From IMG/VR virus record IMGVR_UViG_3300043427_003208, positions 1-20,587 of that record: a DNA stretch of 20,587 nt. The stretch is one strand, 5' to 3'. The notes beneath the pieces are model-generated. The model searched no databases. It saw nothing but the letters and a program-made list of their open reading frames with translations, and was not told where the DNA came from. Each line of letters begins with the position of its first letter. Positions within the stretch are counted from its first letter, which is position 1. The translations under genes and the position numbers were made by a program. The stretch is from a virus. Shown here one piece after another: positions 1-16,928 of the stretch.

Positions 1-209
1 TAAGTATCCAGTTCAATCAAGAAACTGCGAGGACGGTAAGTCTCTCCTGCAACATCGCAGTATCCCAAAACATTTTCACGGGTCAGACCACGATGAAGAA
101 CTTCAATTTCTAATTTATGACGAGGAAAATATTTGGATACAAACCAAGTCACTACATCTTCGCAAAGACGCTTGGAGTACCCATATCCTTCAGTGTAAAG
201 TGTCAACAT
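1..209 (-). CDS. Conserved phage protein, 3'-truncated by window edge (possible metallopeptidase-like N-terminus)
   Basis: Reading leftward from an ATG at 209 gives 69 codons without a stop, running off the window. The protein begins MLTLYTEGYGYSKRLCEDVV and ends ...RSFLIELDT at the edge. The start is fixed by a TAATG overlap with the stop of the 34-aa gene upstream, which indicates translational coupling. A GY-C-VAGETYRPRSFLIEL stretch (about residues 49-67) resembles the region just before the HExxH helix in SprT/minigluzincin-like phage proteins, but the zinc motif itself would lie outside the window, so that family is only a guess. Existence of the gene is well supported by the uninterrupted frame and natural composition. 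Function is unknown. Confidence 0.75.
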   Translation of the reverse strand, partial: MLTLYTEGYGYSKRLCEDVVTWFVSKYFPRHKLEIEVLHRGLTRENVLGYCDVAGETYRPRSFLIELDT

Positions 210-313
210 TAGAATACAGAGTTCAGAGCAACATTACAAACCCTTACACCCCAGTTCATCAGGAGCATGAAGGAACCAACGAAAATCAGTCTATCTAGGT
301 TTGAAAAGGACAT
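209..313 (-). CDS. Small hydrophobic (probable membrane) peptide, 34 aa
   Basis: The ATG at 313 opens a 34-codon frame ending in TAA at 211-209. The stop shares its last A with the ATG of the next gene (TAATG), which is strong evidence that this short frame is real. The peptide starts MSFSNLDRLIF and has one hydrophobic stretch (about residues 9-30, rich in Leu, Ile, Phe, Val and Met, broken by N20 and R24), compatible with a single membrane segment. A purine-rich AAAGAGA lies about 6 bases before the ATG and could serve as ribosome binding site. I do not recognise a named family. It could be a small membrane or lysis-associated phage peptide, but nothing in the sequence shows that. Confidence 0.65.
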   Translation of the reverse strand: MSFSNLDRLIFVGSFMLLMNWGVRVCNVALNSVF

Positions 314-369
314 AAGGTCTCTTTGGTTGTCCACATACTATAAGACCCCTTACAGGCGATTTTAGGCAT

Positions 370-702
370 CTATGGGACAGTTTCTAAAGTGTCATATAAA
401 CTGGGTAAAGGATCAACAAGACGCTGGTGTAACTTATTATGACATTCTTTACATAAGCACCAGCATTTTTTTGATTCTTCTATAATTTCTTTTTTATTAG
501 TAGAATTTGTTACATCAAATGATTTTTTTGTAGGATTTACATGATGAAATTGTATATCGTTTTCGCATCCACAAAAAAGGCATGAAGTTTGTAAAGTTTT
601 ATAGAACTCTTTTGCTCTTTCTCTTCTCCTTTTTCTTTCTATTTTTCTTGCTTCTCTATACTTATCATAATCTGTATAACTAGATTTTTCAAAACTTGCC
701 AT
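370..702 (-). CDS. HNH endonuclease, free-standing, 110 aa
   Basis: This is a small HNH-family nuclease. The N-terminus is a very basic helix (about residues 16-35, RKIERKRRRERAKEF). The catalytic and zinc core follows: CLFC at 41-44, the HH pair at 53-54 in QFHHVNP, then CLCKECHNKLH at 82-92, which supplies the second CxxC (C84, C87) and the N/H residues. All expected HNH elements are present, so the gene looks intact. It is a small free-standing type, like those common in T4-like phages as homing endonucleases. The last residues (DTLETVP) and stop are encoded by one copy of a 23-bp direct repeat whose other copy lies beyond the 5' end. No clear Shine-Dalgarno is visible before the ATG at 702. 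A late promoter word lies 25 bases upstream, inside a terminator hairpin. Homing activity is inferred, not shown. Confidence 0.9.
   Translation of the reverse strand: MASFEKSSYTDYDKYREARKIERKRRRERAKEFYKTLQTSCLFCGCENDIQFHHVNPTKKSFDVTNSTNKKEIIEESKKCWCLCKECHNKLHQRLVDPLPSLYDTLETVP
371..393. repeat. Direct repeat copy 1 (23 bp), 3' end of HNH cassette
   Basis: The plus-strand unit begins TATGGGACAGTTTCT and ends AAGTGTC. It matches positions 745-767 at 22 of 23 bases (A versus G at the 16th base). This copy is inside the last codons of the HNH gene. The unit is a quasi-palindrome: GGACA and TGTCC-like arms face each other across about 10 bases; here the right arm has lost its final C. Confidence 0.85.
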
Positions 703-710
703 TTTTACAA

Positions 711-745
711 ATAAAAAACACCCCTTTATTTATAAAAAGGGGTGT
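711..745 (-). terminator. Rho-independent terminator after the glycan operon
   Basis: On the minus strand, a 10-bp perfect stem (ACACCCC plus TTT at 718-727 pairing with AAA plus GGGGTGT at 736-745) closes an 8-base loop and is followed by a run of T (TTTTTAT). It lies about 25 bases after the TGA of the 948-aa gene and ends the long overlapping operon. The plus-strand side has no matching T run, so it should act mainly leftward. Confidence 0.9.
727..734 (-). promoter_or_regulatory. T4-late-type promoter word TATAAATA inside the terminator hairpin
   Basis: The minus strand reads TATAAATA exactly, the T4 late promoter consensus. It spans the loop and the edge of the stem of the terminator. 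Transcription would start about 6-7 bases downstream, near 720, leaving a leader of about 18 bases before the HNH ATG at 702. It would restart transcription for the HNH gene just after the operon terminator. Promoter activity is inferred from the match and position. Confidence 0.6.
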
Positions 746-767
746 ATGGGACAGTTTCTGAAGTGTC
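745..767. repeat. Direct repeat copy 2 (23 bp), 5' end of HNH cassette
   Basis: This is the second copy of the 23-bp unit, 374 bases from the first. It begins 2-3 bases after the TGA (773-771) of the 948-aa gene and runs into the right arm of the terminator. With the base at 768 it forms the fuller quasi-palindrome, GGGACAG...AGTGTCC at 748-768. Confidence 0.85.
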
Positions 768-770
768 CTA

Positions 771-3617
771 TCAGTATCCATCCTCATGCCAACATTCATT
801 CGAATGTAGTTTTTGCTGTTCGTATGGATAAGAATAAGTATTTCTCTTAGGCCAAACTAAATCAATACCAGTGCTGGGAAAACACTTAAATGCCTTTGGC
901 AAAACTTCAGTGCTAACTGCATGTGCCTCATTCCATGATGGTGCATTATCATAAAGGTATTTTTCAGGTTCAATCAACATCCTTTTAACACGATCATTGA
1001 AACGAGTACAGTAATGTGCTCCAATATAAGTTTCTGGACGAGTTAAGTAATTAGCATATTGTGCAAGTTCATATTTACCAATACGAACTTTATCGATCAA
1101 ACTATTGTACTCCAAAGGAATATCAAACAAAATATGAAGATCTTTAGTTTCACCCCAATAGATATGATCCCTAGGATGGAATAGGAGGGATGGGAATGTA
1201 CCTGCAACAAAGATCTTACCTTCAGTATGATTTTCCATCATAAATTCATACATGTTCATCATACTTGCATAATCATACTTCTGATCAGATCTCATCTTTG
1301 CAGAAAACTTTGTTTTACAATGTTTAATTCCAGCAAAAGATGTTGTGATCTGAAGATTCTTATTGCAAGTACCAGGAGTCAAAGGATAAGAACTCCGTAC
1401 ATACTTTACTCTGCTGGAATGGTAATTATCTGCTCTATCATTGTCCCAGCAGGAAACAATGATATTATTAACAAAAGGGACTTTTAAGTACTCCTCAATG
1501 ATTTCGTCTGTATATTCTTCATATTGTCCTTGTAGAACAATATCCATTTTTTCACTTTCATTGACTTCGACAGTATCTACTTCATTTTCGGCAGAGTTAT
1601 CGAAGGTAAAGTACATAATAAATTGACCTAGATAAGTATCTTTCCAATACTCTCTGAATCCATAGAGGTAGTTGTCATCGAAAAGATGTTCGGTAACTTC
1701 CTTTCCACTTCTTTCATAAACGTGCAATAGACTACACTTAGTCAGGTATAAGTCTCTGAATTCGATAAACCTTTCTATTGCATCCTTATGGTCATTAATG
1801 TGCCATTCTCCTGCACAGTGCCCGACATTTTTAATGATAAAATCGTAGTTTTCTTTGGTGAAGATAGAATACTCCCCACCTTCACAATCAAACTTTAGAA
1901 AATCAATTCGAGTGATGTTATTTTCTTCAACAATCTTTTTGAATGTAGTTGTTGGATATTCATTTCCATCATTTTCATAGATGTAGACACCCTTATCTGC
2001 AATCACAACATTATCACTTTCAAAGTCTGAAATTGCTTTATTGATAAAGGTTACAGGACCATGACCAACATTCTTTTTCAGAGAATGAATCAAAGTATTA
2101 GAAGGTTCAACACAATATACTTGCTTTGGTTTCTTACCTAGAATTGAATGGGTAAATGAACCACAGTTTGCACCAGCATCAATTACAACATCTCCTGCTT
2201 TAATGCGATAGTGCTTTTCGTATGTTCTTTCAATGAAATTTTCATTGGTAAACATCTGTGCATATTCAGGATTTGTTCCACCCCAATCAAAATCAGGTGG
2301 AACTAAATGATTTGGAAAATACTTTTTTAGATTATCTAGAACAACATTTCGATATGTCTCGTGCATATCATGATTTTCATATAGATCTTTAAATATTGCA
2401 CCAGACTCCTCATTCTTACCCCACCACCATCCAGAAATTGCTTTTTCAAAGAGCAATCCATAAACACCAGGATAACCAACGTGAGTTCTTAGTGGTCTTG
2501 AATTTAAATCAGAAAATCTAAGAGCATTATCGGCATAGATGTAGCAATCTTGCCACCATTGCCTCTTCTCTGCAAATTGTGCAAGTAAGAAATATGCTTC
2601 TGGACGAGTGGGAACTAGTACTAGTGCTTGCTGAAGAAGTCCTTTAGCAGTTCCTTCTCGGGTTCCTTGGCGATCATAGCAAATAGATCCATGAATGAGT
2701 GCCTCATATGCAAGAACTTTATCTTCGGATCTTTCTGCACATCTCAGGAAATAGGAAAGTGCAGGAGCAGTATGACCTGCATTCTCGTACCAAAGACCAA
2801 GTGCAAAATTATACTCTGGATTTTCAGTATCCAAAGAATATTGAGTGAGGAGTTCTTCAAGTTGAGTTTTCATTTTTGTTTCAGGCAATCCAAATAATTG
2901 ATTTAATGAGGTATGTTGTGTCTTCCACCAGTTAGATACAAAATCATAACTTTCCTTATGATATTCTTTATGACCACCTTCGATTTGATTAAAGGTGGTT
3001 GATACGGCGTTATTTTCTACAAACAATTCTACAGTATAAACCTTTCCAAGACCATAGAATAAAACATTCTCTGGCATTGGATAAAAATTAGTGCCTGGAA
3101 TTGTTAAGTCATATTCATCACCGACAACATGTCTTTCTAATACTTTTCGTGCATACTCACGAGTCATTATATATGCAGTCACAGACCAATCATACATTGA
3201 TCTCTCACGAAAACAAATCGTATCAAAAGATGGACGAATAGATGTTAATTGGACACACCCCACATCATCTGGGAGTTTGTCCATAAACTCATCCCAAGTA
3301 AAATTCCAATGTTCTAATGTTTCTAAACTTAAATCATCCTCACAGAAGAAAGCATAATCATCATCTTTTTCTTCGTACCATTTTTGAATTGCTTTCAAAT
3401 GAGAAATTACACATCCTGTAGTACCAGCGTCAAGGATATGTAACATTTCTCCTTTAACTTTATCATCACACTCAGCAAATCTTTTTGAAAGTATTGGTGT
3501 TATATCATCAATACCATATTTTAAAAATTGTTCGTGTAATATTTTTTGTCTTTCTGTGCTTTCTTCTAGACTAATGTAATAAGAATATGGAAAGTATTTC
3601 AGTTTATCAGTTACCAT
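771..3617 (-). CDS. Multidomain protein: GT25-like glycosyltransferase + helical repeats + FkbM methyltransferase + WavE-like domain
   Basis: Four modules are seen in 948 aa. Residues ~8-210 resemble LPS glycosyltransferase family 25, with the acidic motif FFCEDDLS at 90-97. Residues ~265-370 are TPR-like helices (NPEYNFALGLWYENAGH, then RPEAYFLLAQFAEKRQWW). Residues ~470-625 form an FkbM-type SAM methyltransferase with DAGANCGSF (480-488), CVEPS (502-506) and FLKFDCEGGE (573-582). Residues ~690-930 resemble the WavE lipopolysaccharide-synthesis family (MDIVLQGQYEEYT; FSAKMRSDQKYDY at 771-783). It probably transfers a sugar and O-methylates a glycan; substrates are unknown. Bacterial versions usually occur as separate proteins, so the four-part fusion is notable. 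Its start overlaps the SDR gene by 11 bases, and it is the last gene before the terminator. The GT25-like part is a paralogue of that in the gene at 6462-7808. Confidence 0.88.
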   Translation of the reverse strand: MVTDKLKYFPYSYYISLEESTERQKILHEQFLKYGIDDITPILSKRFAECDDKVKGEMLHILDAGTTGCVISHLKAIQKWYEEKDDDYAFFCEDDLSLETLEHWNFTWDEFMDKLPDDVGCVQLTSIRPSFDTICFRERSMYDWSVTAYIMTREYARKVLERHVVGDEYDLTIPGTNFYPMPENVLFYGLGKVYTVELFVENNAVSTTFNQIEGGHKEYHKESYDFVSNWWKTQHTSLNQLFGLPETKMKTQLEELLTQYSLDTENPEYNFALGLWYENAGHTAPALSYFLRCAERSEDKVLAYEALIHGSICYDRQGTREGTAKGLLQQALVLVPTRPEAYFLLAQFAEKRQWWQDCYIYADNALRFSDLNSRPLRTHVGYPGVYGLLFEKAISGWWWGKNEESGAIFKDLYENHDMHETYRNVVLDNLKKYFPNHLVPPDFDWGGTNPEYAQMFTNENFIERTYEKHYRIKAGDVVIDAGANCGSFTHSILGKKPKQVYCVEPSNTLIHSLKKNVGHGPVTFINKAISDFESDNVVIADKGVYIYENDGNEYPTTTFKKIVEENNITRIDFLKFDCEGGEYSIFTKENYDFIIKNVGHCAGEWHINDHKDAIERFIEFRDLYLTKCSLLHVYERSGKEVTEHLFDDNYLYGFREYWKDTYLGQFIMYFTFDNSAENEVDTVEVNESEKMDIVLQGQYEEYTDEIIEEYLKVPFVNNIIVSCWDNDRADNYHSSRVKYVRSSYPLTPGTCNKNLQITTSFAGIKHCKTKFSAKMRSDQKYDYASMMNMYEFMMENHTEGKIFVAGTFPSLLFHPRDHIYWGETKDLHILFDIPLEYNSLIDKVRIGKYELAQYANYLTRPETYIGAHYCTRFNDRVKRMLIEPEKYLYDNAPSWNEAHAVSTEVLPKAFKCFPSTGIDLVWPKRNTYSYPYEQQKLHSNECWHEDGY

Positions 3618-14546: not shown

Positions 14547-16928
14547 TTAAACTCCGAATAGTATACTGTATGAAATAGATTCTTCTGCTGTTACAAATGC
14601 AGTTGTTGGAGAATTTGTAGATTTAATTGCAACTCCAAAGAATACTTGTCCTGCTTTAGGTGCCTCAACAAAATTAATTTTAATTGGATCAGTTGTTATA
14701 TTTGTTCCACCACTAATATAGAAACCTGCATTTTGCGATGGATCTGGTTGTTGAACTACTCCTCCAACAGAAATAAGTAATCGTGCCGCACTATCTATCT
14801 CACTATTTATAAAATTAGTTGCAGGAGAACCAGAAGTGATTGTGAATTGAGTAGTTGATCCGTTAAATGATGATGATATATCATTTAAAATAACAGATTG
14901 ATCAGGAACTGTTGCAGTCGGACCAACAACTCCCTGAACACCTTGAAGACCTTGAGTACCTTGAATACTTCCAGCAAGACCTTGAACGCCTTGATTACTT
15001 AATCCTTGAACTCCTTGCCGACCTTGTAATCCTTGTAATCCTTGTAATCCTTGAACACCTTGGTTTGAGAGTCCTTGAACACCTTGAAGTCCTTGAGCAC
15101 CCTGAGATCCATTAGTACCTTGCACACCCTGATTACTCAGTCCTTGTGTTCCTTGATCTCCTTTAAGACCTTGAGTACCTTGTACACCCTGATTACTCAG
15201 TCCTTGTGTTCCTTGATCACCTTTAAGACCTTGTAGACCTTGTAGACCTTGGGAACCTTGATTACTTAAACCTTGAGCACCTTGTCTTCCTTGAAGTCCT
15301 TGTAGACCTTGTAGACCTTGAGAACCTTGATTACTAAGACCTTGAGTACCTTGATCTCCCTTAAGTCCTTGAGTACCCTGAACACCTTGATTTGAGAGAC
15401 CTTGAGTTCCCTGATCTCCCTTAAGACCTTGAACCCCTTGATTTGAAAGTCCTTGTAAACCCTGAAGACCTTGAGCGCCTTGAGATCCTCCAGAACCCTG
15501 AACACCTTGGTTTGATAGACCTTGAGTTCCCTGATCTCCTTTAAGACCTTGTAAACCTTGTACTCCTTGAACACCTTGATTACTTAGACCTTGAACACCC
15601 TGAAGTCCTTGAGCGCCTTGAGATCCTCCAGAACCCTGAACACCTTGGTTTGAGAGTCCTTGAGTACCCTGTCTTCCCTGAAGACCTTGAGTACCCTGAA
15701 CACCTTGATTTGAGAGTCCTTGAGTACCTTGATCACCTTTAAGACCTTGAAGACCTTGAGTACCCTGAACACCTTGATTTGAGAGTCCTTGAGTACCCTG
15801 TCTTCCTTGAAGACCTTGAAGACCTTGAGTACCCTGAACACCTTGATTACTTAAACCCTGAAGACCTTGAACACCCTGTTGCCCTTGAGCGCCTTGAGAA
15901 CCACCAATACCTTGAGCACCCTGTGAACCAGTATCTCCTTTATCACCAGTACGAGCAAAGGTAATAATTACATCTTCGCTTGCTGTAAATGAAGTTGCGC
16001 TACCGGAAACATATCCACAATCAACTTGGAAATATCCAGTTTGCTCTACAATTGATGAAATAGTGAATAAAGCAAAATCGGATGCATCAAACTTATTAGA
16101 TATTCTAAAATGACCCTTAATTGTTGATGTTGAATCATCAATAGTTCTCAAAAATGATTGAATATCCGTAGTTCCATCGTTCGCATCATCAATATAAAGT
16201 TGTGTCGCAAGAGTTACATTTGCATTGTTTAATTTGAGATTTCCTACACCTGGATCAGTGTTAGTTGTATCTGTGTTGAAAGTATAATCAAAAGTTGCAC
16301 CACCAAAGTTTCCATCCTTACCAGATAAACCTTGAAGACCTTGTGATCCTTGAGTACCAAATATTCCTTGAAGTCCTTGAGTACCCTGTCTTCCCTGAAG
16401 TCCTTGTAAACCTTGAGTACCTTGAGCGCCTTGATTAGAAAGACCTTGAGTTCCCTGATCTCCTTTAAGTCCTTGTAGACCTTGAACACCTTGGTTTGAG
16501 AGTCCTTGAGTACCCTGTCTTCCTTGAAGACCTTGAGTACCTTGAACACCTTGATTTGAGAGTCCTTGAGTACCCTGATCTCCTTTAAGACCTTGTAGAC
16601 CCTGAAGACCTTGAACACCTTGGTTTGAGAGACCTTGAGTTCCTTGATCTCCCTTAAGTCCTTGAAGACCTTGAGCACCCTGAACACCTTGATTACTTAA
16701 ACCTTGAAGACCTTGGACACCTTGCCGTCCTTGAGTACCTTGAACACCTTGATTGGAAAGACCCTGAACACCTTGAAGTCCTTGTGTTCCCTGATCTCCT
16801 TTAAGACCTTGAGTGCCTTGAGTTCCTTGAATACCCTGATTGGCAAGACCTTGAACACCTTGTGCTCCTTGTACACCTTGACCACCAGAAAACTGTGAAC
16901 CTATGAGATCGGTTAAATTAGTTGCCAT
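14547..16928 (-). CDS. Collagen-like repeat protein, probable fibre, 793 aa
   Basis: The layout is a short head (1-14, MATNLTDLIG), collagen-like region 1 (~15-206), a globular beta island (~207-326), collagen-like region 2 (~327-670) and a globular tip (~671-793). Gly occurs every third residue, with Gln in most Y positions (GLQ, GTQ, GVQ, GRQ, GAQ). The repeats have no proline. They are broken at 21 places by G-LSNQ-G (once LANQ), and KGD pairs occur ten times in GLKGDQGTQG. The C-terminal tip (SSFNGSTTQFTITSG; AARLLISVGGVVQQP) resembles fibre-tip domains seen in phages and could nucleate trimerisation. The role is inferred as a triple-helical tail fibre or host-contact protein. A candidate late promoter lies before it and AGG sits close to the ATG. 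It heads the structural gene block. Confidence 0.92.
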   Translation of the reverse strand: MATNLTDLIGSQFSGGQGVQGAQGVQGLANQGIQGTQGTQGLKGDQGTQGLQGVQGLSNQGVQGTQGRQGVQGLQGLSNQGVQGAQGLQGLKGDQGTQGLSNQGVQGLQGLQGLKGDQGTQGLSNQGVQGTQGLQGRQGTQGLSNQGVQGLQGLKGDQGTQGLSNQGAQGTQGLQGLQGRQGTQGLQGIFGTQGSQGLQGLSGKDGNFGGATFDYTFNTDTTNTDPGVGNLKLNNANVTLATQLYIDDANDGTTDIQSFLRTIDDSTSTIKGHFRISNKFDASDFALFTISSIVEQTGYFQVDCGYVSGSATSFTASEDVIITFARTGDKGDTGSQGAQGIGGSQGAQGQQGVQGLQGLSNQGVQGTQGLQGLQGRQGTQGLSNQGVQGTQGLQGLKGDQGTQGLSNQGVQGTQGLQGRQGTQGLSNQGVQGSGGSQGAQGLQGVQGLSNQGVQGVQGLQGLKGDQGTQGLSNQGVQGSGGSQGAQGLQGLQGLSNQGVQGLKGDQGTQGLSNQGVQGTQGLKGDQGTQGLSNQGSQGLQGLQGLQGRQGAQGLSNQGSQGLQGLQGLKGDQGTQGLSNQGVQGTQGLKGDQGTQGLSNQGVQGTNGSQGAQGLQGVQGLSNQGVQGLQGLQGLQGRQGVQGLSNQGVQGLAGSIQGTQGLQGVQGVVGPTATVPDQSVILNDISSSFNGSTTQFTITSGSPATNFINSEIDSAARLLISVGGVVQQPDPSQNAGFYISGGTNITTDPIKINFVEAPKAGQVFFGVAIKSTNSPTTAFVTAEESISYSILFGV
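14804..14811 (-). promoter_or_regulatory. Internal TATAAATA word in the collagen-like gene
   Basis: This is an exact T4 late consensus on the minus strand, inside the coding sequence for the C-terminal tip and 264 bases before the next gene start (14539). It could give extra transcription of the structural genes downstream. The distance is long and a chance match in AT-rich coding DNA is quite possible. Confidence 0.25.
14919..15950 (-). repeat. Tandem minisatellite-like repeats, collagen-like region 2
   Basis: Degenerate 51-, 60- and 69-bp units encode GLSNQG followed by Gly-X-Gln triplets. Fourteen units are present. Neighbouring units share long identical DNA stretches, so unit gain and loss by recombination is likely. 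Confidence 0.85.
16311..16886 (-). repeat. Tandem minisatellite-like repeats, collagen-like region 1
   Basis: Seven units of the same family as region 2 are spaced mostly 60 or 69 bp apart (one 87 bp). The first unit has LANQ in place of LSNQ. It is separated from region 2 by about 360 bp encoding a globular island. Confidence 0.85.

Follow-up and report, generated by a model that had tools for sequence, protein, structure and literature searches.

The window examined here, the whole of a 20.6-kb virus record, carries minus-strand T4-like tail-fibre, collagen-like and glycosyltransferase genes, among them a gene for a collagen-like protein of the tail region with long GxQGxQG repeats (14547-16928, minus strand). 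The locus under study is likewise read on the minus strand. It opens with a gene of 948 aa (771..3617) of the glycosyltransferase 25/FkbM methyltransferase/WavE-like type, also present at the empty sites L175-L177 described below, whose TGA stop (771-773) marks the left edge of the insertion site. Three bases further on lies the 5' or outer copy of a dyad, GACACTTCAGAAACTGTC (750..767), in the position held by the single dyad of the empty sites, followed by an intrinsic terminator hairpin, ACACCCCTTT...AAAGGGGTGT and then TTTT (718..745; -15.7 kcal/mol, z -3.66), the loop of which contains a sequence match to the T4-type late promoter word, TATAAATA (727..734). Next comes the gene for an HNH nuclease of 110 aa (370..702), assigned through PHROG HNH families; the inner copy of the dyad, GACACTTTAGAAACTGTC (376..393), overlies its terminal codons DTLETVP-stop and is judged orthologous to the dyad of relatives devoid of the HNH gene. 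A -10 box, TATAGT (337..342), stands 33 bp downstream of the inner dyad, a spacing within the 31-33 peak documented below, and precedes a conserved small membrane ORF of 34 aa, MSFSNLDRLIFVGSFMLLMNWGVRVCNVALNSVF (209..313), and the 5' part of a T4-GC70/PF06114-type gene (1..209), the first and second genes behind the inner promoter. The 34-aa peptide is unannotated, overlaps the start of the next gene and occurs in most of the loci L040-L076 as well as in L175-L177. According to the ORF list, the insert holds only the HNH ORF and neither a transposase nor a recombinase.

The core of the two dyads is a 23-bp unit found at 371-393 and 745-767 (22/23 identical, 374 bp from start to start), which can be extended to 34 nt at 85% identity. 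A 20-base pattern of the unit has exactly two matches in the window, both with 0 mismatches, the chance expectation being 0.02 even with 3 mismatches allowed. A sequence-only reading of this DNA had described the pair as bracketing a terminator, a late promoter and a complete HNH gene, with the outer copy just past the stop of the preceding operon and the inner copy coding for the last residues of the nuclease (ORF 702-370), and the layout given above bears out each of these points. Beyond that reading, the unit proves to be part of a longer dyad, and its inner copy is followed by a -10 box. Both copies share AAGGGGT, 18 and 19 bases behind CCCATA, which may faintly hint at a duplicated dyad-plus-hairpin module rather than at two unrelated dyads. 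An exact 22-mer search of viral contigs returned no match outside the window, nor did blastn of the region against phages.

The native dyad, GTGnCASTT-N4-AASTGnCAC, is found across marine cyanomyoviruses 31-34 bp upstream of TATAAT, and 96 sites give a consensus of approximately TGTGnCASTT-N4-AASTGnCACA. Scanning viral contigs with GGGACAGTTTNNNAAGTGTC yielded 29 stretches. In many of these, an HNH gene is absent, and the unit sits at a gene end, that of peptide deformylase among others, about 30 bp ahead of a TATAAT-like box. With at most one mismatch, the dyad GACASTTNNNNAASTGTC has 39 sites in nine cyanomyoviruses (P-SSM7, S-SM2, S-SRM01, S-SKS1, P-SSM2, Syn9, S-PM2, P-SSM4 and P-HM2) versus one for the reversed pattern, and none in the genomes of T4, KVP40 or S-CREM2. 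Downstream of 172 oriented dyads from seven cyanomyoviruses (covered by L036-L039, L094-L131 and L150-L173), TATAAT-like boxes occur at offsets 31, 32 and 33 in 10, 26 and 20 cases, respectively, against a background of about 1.6 per offset elsewhere and a flat distribution for control dyads; the class with TATAAT 32 bp from the dyad is thus present in other phages. Under a looser definition, the seven genomes contain 104 dyad promoters versus 15 with the reversed dyad. In P-SSM7, five of them lie within a small-ORF cluster at 42-45 kb, where the -10 box stands about 30-35 bp ahead of the next start codon, and others precede the T4-GC146 peptidase and cobS. The full dyad pattern occurs in at least 120 stretches of viral contigs and has 17 matches in 257 Gb of bacterial and archaeal genomes, on the order of the chance expectation; of these 17, three come from cyanobacteria, including one from Prochlorococcus. 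A promoter owned by the host was rejected on this comparison.

Given the spacing peak, the abundance in phages and the chance-level matches in cellular genomes, the dyad and its -10 box are, as far as sequence can tell, a phage promoter class and not the end of a mobile element. This class, which appears little described so far and may in part be known already, is a candidate for the early/middle promoter of marine T4-like phages. Cyanomyoviruses are devoid of motA and asiA, and reviews regard their early/middle control as unclear and mention a putative middle promoter for just P-SSM4 and Syn9 (PMC2984593; PMC5780444). The product of T4-GC321, considered as a candidate regulator, had no Pfam match. 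S-CREM2, which does not possess the usual dyad, carries GTTAAGnnnTGTTAC-type dyads similarly spaced from -10 boxes TATA[AC]TA (L132-L140; record positions 30941, 40045, 41136, 62493 and 141014), which suggests that the dyad in use varies with the phage lineage. The spacer of dyad promoters often holds a terminator hairpin. Of note, a peptide-deformylase-like protein (L008, L025, L027) ends in MDTLETVPAVV and has the DTLETVP tail in common with the unrelated HNH protein, since the promoter dyad forms its last codons.

With regard to the window, the two copies do not behave alike. When a dyad promoter is defined by a dyad with at most two mismatches and a -10 box 31-34 bp on, the inner copy belongs to the class, with TATAGT at 33 bp; the outer copy falls outside it, the sequence at 33 bp being TTTTAT (716-711), which has 4/6 matches and is no canonical -10. 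A relative of the downstream gene is encoded at 37 viral loci, and many of these have a dyad about 172-185 bp from the gene start and a TATAGT-like box about 33 bp on, with no HNH gene. As these HNH-less relatives carry dyad and box at an equal distance, the inner copy is best read as the orthologous promoter of the downstream gene pair, a conserved element that the C-terminal codons of the HNH gene would form. At the corresponding site, three dyads are packed into about 300 bp in L044, L045 and L047, and a profile search of these three loci found no HNH.

A late word, or a near match to it, is located in the hairpin loop before the HNH gene in the window, in L003 and in S-CREM2, and a near match lies in the hairpin arm in L081. 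This placement is rare: none of the 342 late words of eight other genomes is inside a terminator hairpin, and the single cases in S-CREM2 and in the window both precede an HNH gene. T4 late promoters start a few bases behind the late word. A late transcript starting there would lack the 5' arm of the hairpin and would thus be expected to escape the terminator.

The HNH protein itself matches PHROG HNH endonuclease families (best E 2.9e-16) and was not recognised by Pfam alone; Pfam HNH matches three of seven family members, with a best value of 0.00054. The homologues share C41, C44, H53, H54, C84, C87, H88 and H92. The AlphaFold model of the window protein (mean pLDDT 85.8) has a strand-helix-strand-helix order, and Foldseek returned weak matches (best E 0.24) with HNH nucleases at the top. 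PHROG, Pfam and the model place the protein among those with an HNH/beta-beta-alpha-metal nuclease domain, and endonuclease activity can be predicted for it. The fold is modelled with confidence except for residues 98-110, the last 13 including the dyad-encoded tail, where pLDDT falls below 50; this would be in keeping with codons whose role lies in the DNA and not in the fold.

In four of eight HNH loci (the window, L003, L078/L079 and S-CREM2), the HNH reading frame terminates within the promoter element belonging to the gene that follows, the dyad being of the GACA...TGTC type in most and GTTA...GTAAC in S-CREM2, and the four other homologues (L080-L083) have no dyad at their end. A 5' dyad copy is found in the window only; the other HNH loci with the element have the 3' copy alone. 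The GACA-type dyad at an HNH end (3/7) compares with about 5.6% of genes in the seven genomes that have such a promoter behind them, giving p of about 0.005, or 0.07 if the base rate of early regions is taken as 15% of genes. None of the dyad loci that the two pattern searches in viral contigs had returned carries an HNH gene of the window family ending at the dyad. A fixed register of HNH end and dyad relative to VDPLP was also considered, and it fails with L078, where the dyad lies five codons further on. The HNH ORF of S-CREM2 (L004 2417-2728, from 58536) is unannotated in the GenBank record. The sequence-only interpretation is partly supported: the arrangement recurs in other contexts with the HNH homologues of L003 and S-CREM2, but the two-sided bracket belongs to the window only.

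The sequence-only reading had also called for a comparison with relatives that might hold an empty site with a single unit, and such sites exist. Relatives of the upstream gene were found at 21 loci. Among these, L175/L176 and L177 share both flanking genes with the window and have no HNH gene; just one dyad is present, immediately after the stop of the upstream gene, and TATAGT or TATAAT stands about 33 bp beyond it. In alignment with the window, they show a single clean gap that covers the window's additional dyad, hairpin and HNH gene, which supports insertion at a gene end. A second pair is formed by L003, with an HNH homologue 53% identical, and by L198 (upstream gene 87% identical) and L196/L197, in which a stop is followed by a single dyad, a hairpin and a -10 box at the HNH position of L003. 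In L003, the dyad overlies HNH codons with TATAAT 32 bp on, and no dyad is present on the 5' side. L003 has another dyad promoter further on, where the small gene that follows its HNH gene ends (1867-1890), which makes the dyad promoters tandem; a search for relatives of this 51-aa gene found none. In S-H34 and S-B68, HNH-less relatives of S-CREM2, a dyad of the lineage type, a hairpin and a -10 box precede the homologue of the downstream gene, a comparison that is partial as it rests on downstream-gene homology.

The hairpins differ between the two kinds of site. At each of the four empty sites, the sequence from the dyad to the -10 box folds into a strong hairpin (-17.4 to -19.6 kcal/mol). 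At both occupied sites, the window and L003, this spacer hairpin has been lost, the spacer folding weakly (-6.4 and -2.8 kcal/mol, z about 0), and the terminator hairpin is found 5' of the HNH gene instead (-15.7 and -19.6 kcal/mol). At the two loci compared, the HNH gene is thus intergenic and variably present, some relatives having it and others not at the corresponding junction.

We consider it probable, on the strength of these sequence comparisons, that a native module of dyad, terminator and -10 promoter in a marine T4-like cyanophage received a free-standing HNH endonuclease gene of the T4 type by insertion, with the downstream promoter left intact. The original module would have consisted of the stop of the upstream gene, the dyad, the terminator hairpin, the -10 box and an early-type gene. 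After insertion, its 5' part would comprise the stop, a dyad copy and the terminator with the late promoter in its loop, and its 3' part the HNH gene, a dyad copy made of its last codons, the original -10 box and the downstream gene. As the promoter is kept with its 33-bp spacing, deletion of the nuclease gene would tend to damage it. Transcripts entering from upstream would meet the terminator; late transcripts starting in the loop would be unable to fold it, and the nuclease should therefore be made late. The HNH protein might cut at or near the dyad, and repair by recombination through the dyad may have generated the second copy. Recombination through the many dyads of the genome after such a cut would explain this copy, as would two independent dyads.

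The last possibility leads to a rather unlikely alternative, namely that the two copies may be ordinary dyads resembling each other through their common consensus, the HNH gene having inserted passively between a gene end and a promoter, a place that tolerates insertions, with no relation to the dyad. The consensus does account for most of the identity, tandem dyads are frequent at this locus in the HNH-less L044, L045 and L047, and four HNH homologues do without a dyad. However, the identity (22/23) reaches the free positions of the motif and the flank, the HNH-less sites with both neighbours have one dyad only, and the association of HNH ends with the dyad exceeds the base rate. An operator or promoter role of the outer dyad for the HNH gene is improbable, whether its ligand is a phage activator or, as with I-TevI, the HNH protein itself, repressing its own gene from a site similar to its target. 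Its position 15 bp upstream of the late word would suit this role, and I-TevI has a promoter operator resembling its homing site, as I-TevII and I-TevIII may have (PMC2988022); against it, the sequence 31-34 bp from the outer dyad (TTTTAT) is no canonical -10, and other HNH homologues have no dyad there.

More improbable still is a mobile cassette that would be autonomous and have 23-bp repeats of its own at its ends, duplicated or carried along on insertion, as the sequence-only reading had proposed. Two near-identical copies do bracket the insert exactly, HNH-less relatives with both neighbours have one copy, and a terminator and a late promoter of the insert's own are both present between the copies. 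Yet the unit, which that reading took for part of the module, is a native promoter element occurring without HNH in well over 100 places, and no other HNH locus has a 5' copy. Nor do the repeats look like its ends: the inner copy would be the orthologous promoter of the downstream gene, conserved upstream of it in HNH-less relatives, and the three HNH-less loci with three dyads are an arrangement of the kind that the reading itself had named as contradicting it. Since the insert contains the HNH ORF alone, with no transposase or recombinase, and its repeats are native promoter elements, it does not classify as an insertion sequence or transposon. A target-site duplication made by a transposase was likewise rejected, the insert having no transposase gene.

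Insertion of a free-standing endonuclease into a native promoter module remains our preferred reading, and a broader version of it, possible but doubtful, would have this HNH family land on early-promoter elements, cut at the dyad and insert through the short homology that the dyad provides; its C-terminal codons would be selected as the promoter element of the invaded lineage, so that the family could spread across cyanophages with no promoter being broken. The locus provides clear occupied/empty pairs for a homing-type nuclease whose C-terminal codons would be the promoter element of the next gene, and points to a widespread promoter class in marine T4-like cyanophages, composed of a dyad near -53 and a sigma-70-type -10. 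How early and middle transcription proceeds in these phages in the absence of MotA and AsiA is described as an open question (PMC2984593), and the dyad therefore offers a direct handle on it, that of finding the protein that binds the dyad.

Much of this has parallels in T4. Free-standing endonucleases of this phage are inserted at intergenic promoters, with downstream promoters embedded in their coding regions, an arrangement that favours retention of the endonuclease gene, and they are expressed from middle or late promoters, with hairpins that let only late transcripts pass (PMC2988022). The HNH genes mobA-mobE and the GIY-YIG genes segG, segA and segE resemble the window in being intergenic, free-standing and co-directional with their neighbours, and segG and mobC likewise keep the promoter of the downstream gene intact. 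As in several T4 members, the window appears to embed this promoter (inner dyad 376-393, -10 box 337-342), but the embedded promoter is of the cyanophage dyad type and forms the last codons. Unlike in T4, an additional promoter dyad lies beside the HNH gene, and its homing is putative. I-TevI, segB and Aeh1 mobE share with the window a hairpin and late promoter directly upstream, from which only late transcripts escape (PMC2988022); their hairpin hides the ribosome-binding site, whereas the window has a terminator ahead of the start codon, with the late word inside the loop. Another counterpart is the HNH ORF of S-CREM2, which is homologous, has a hairpin and late promoter before it and a dyad over its last codons, and differs in its lineage-specific GTTAAGnnnTGTTAC-type dyad and in having no 5' copy. 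Finally, the dyad promoters resemble the T4 middle promoters with their MotA box in combining a phage-specific upstream element with a sigma-70-type -10. The MotA box of T4 lies at about -30, and the dyad, about 24 bp long and centred near -53, is placed further upstream.
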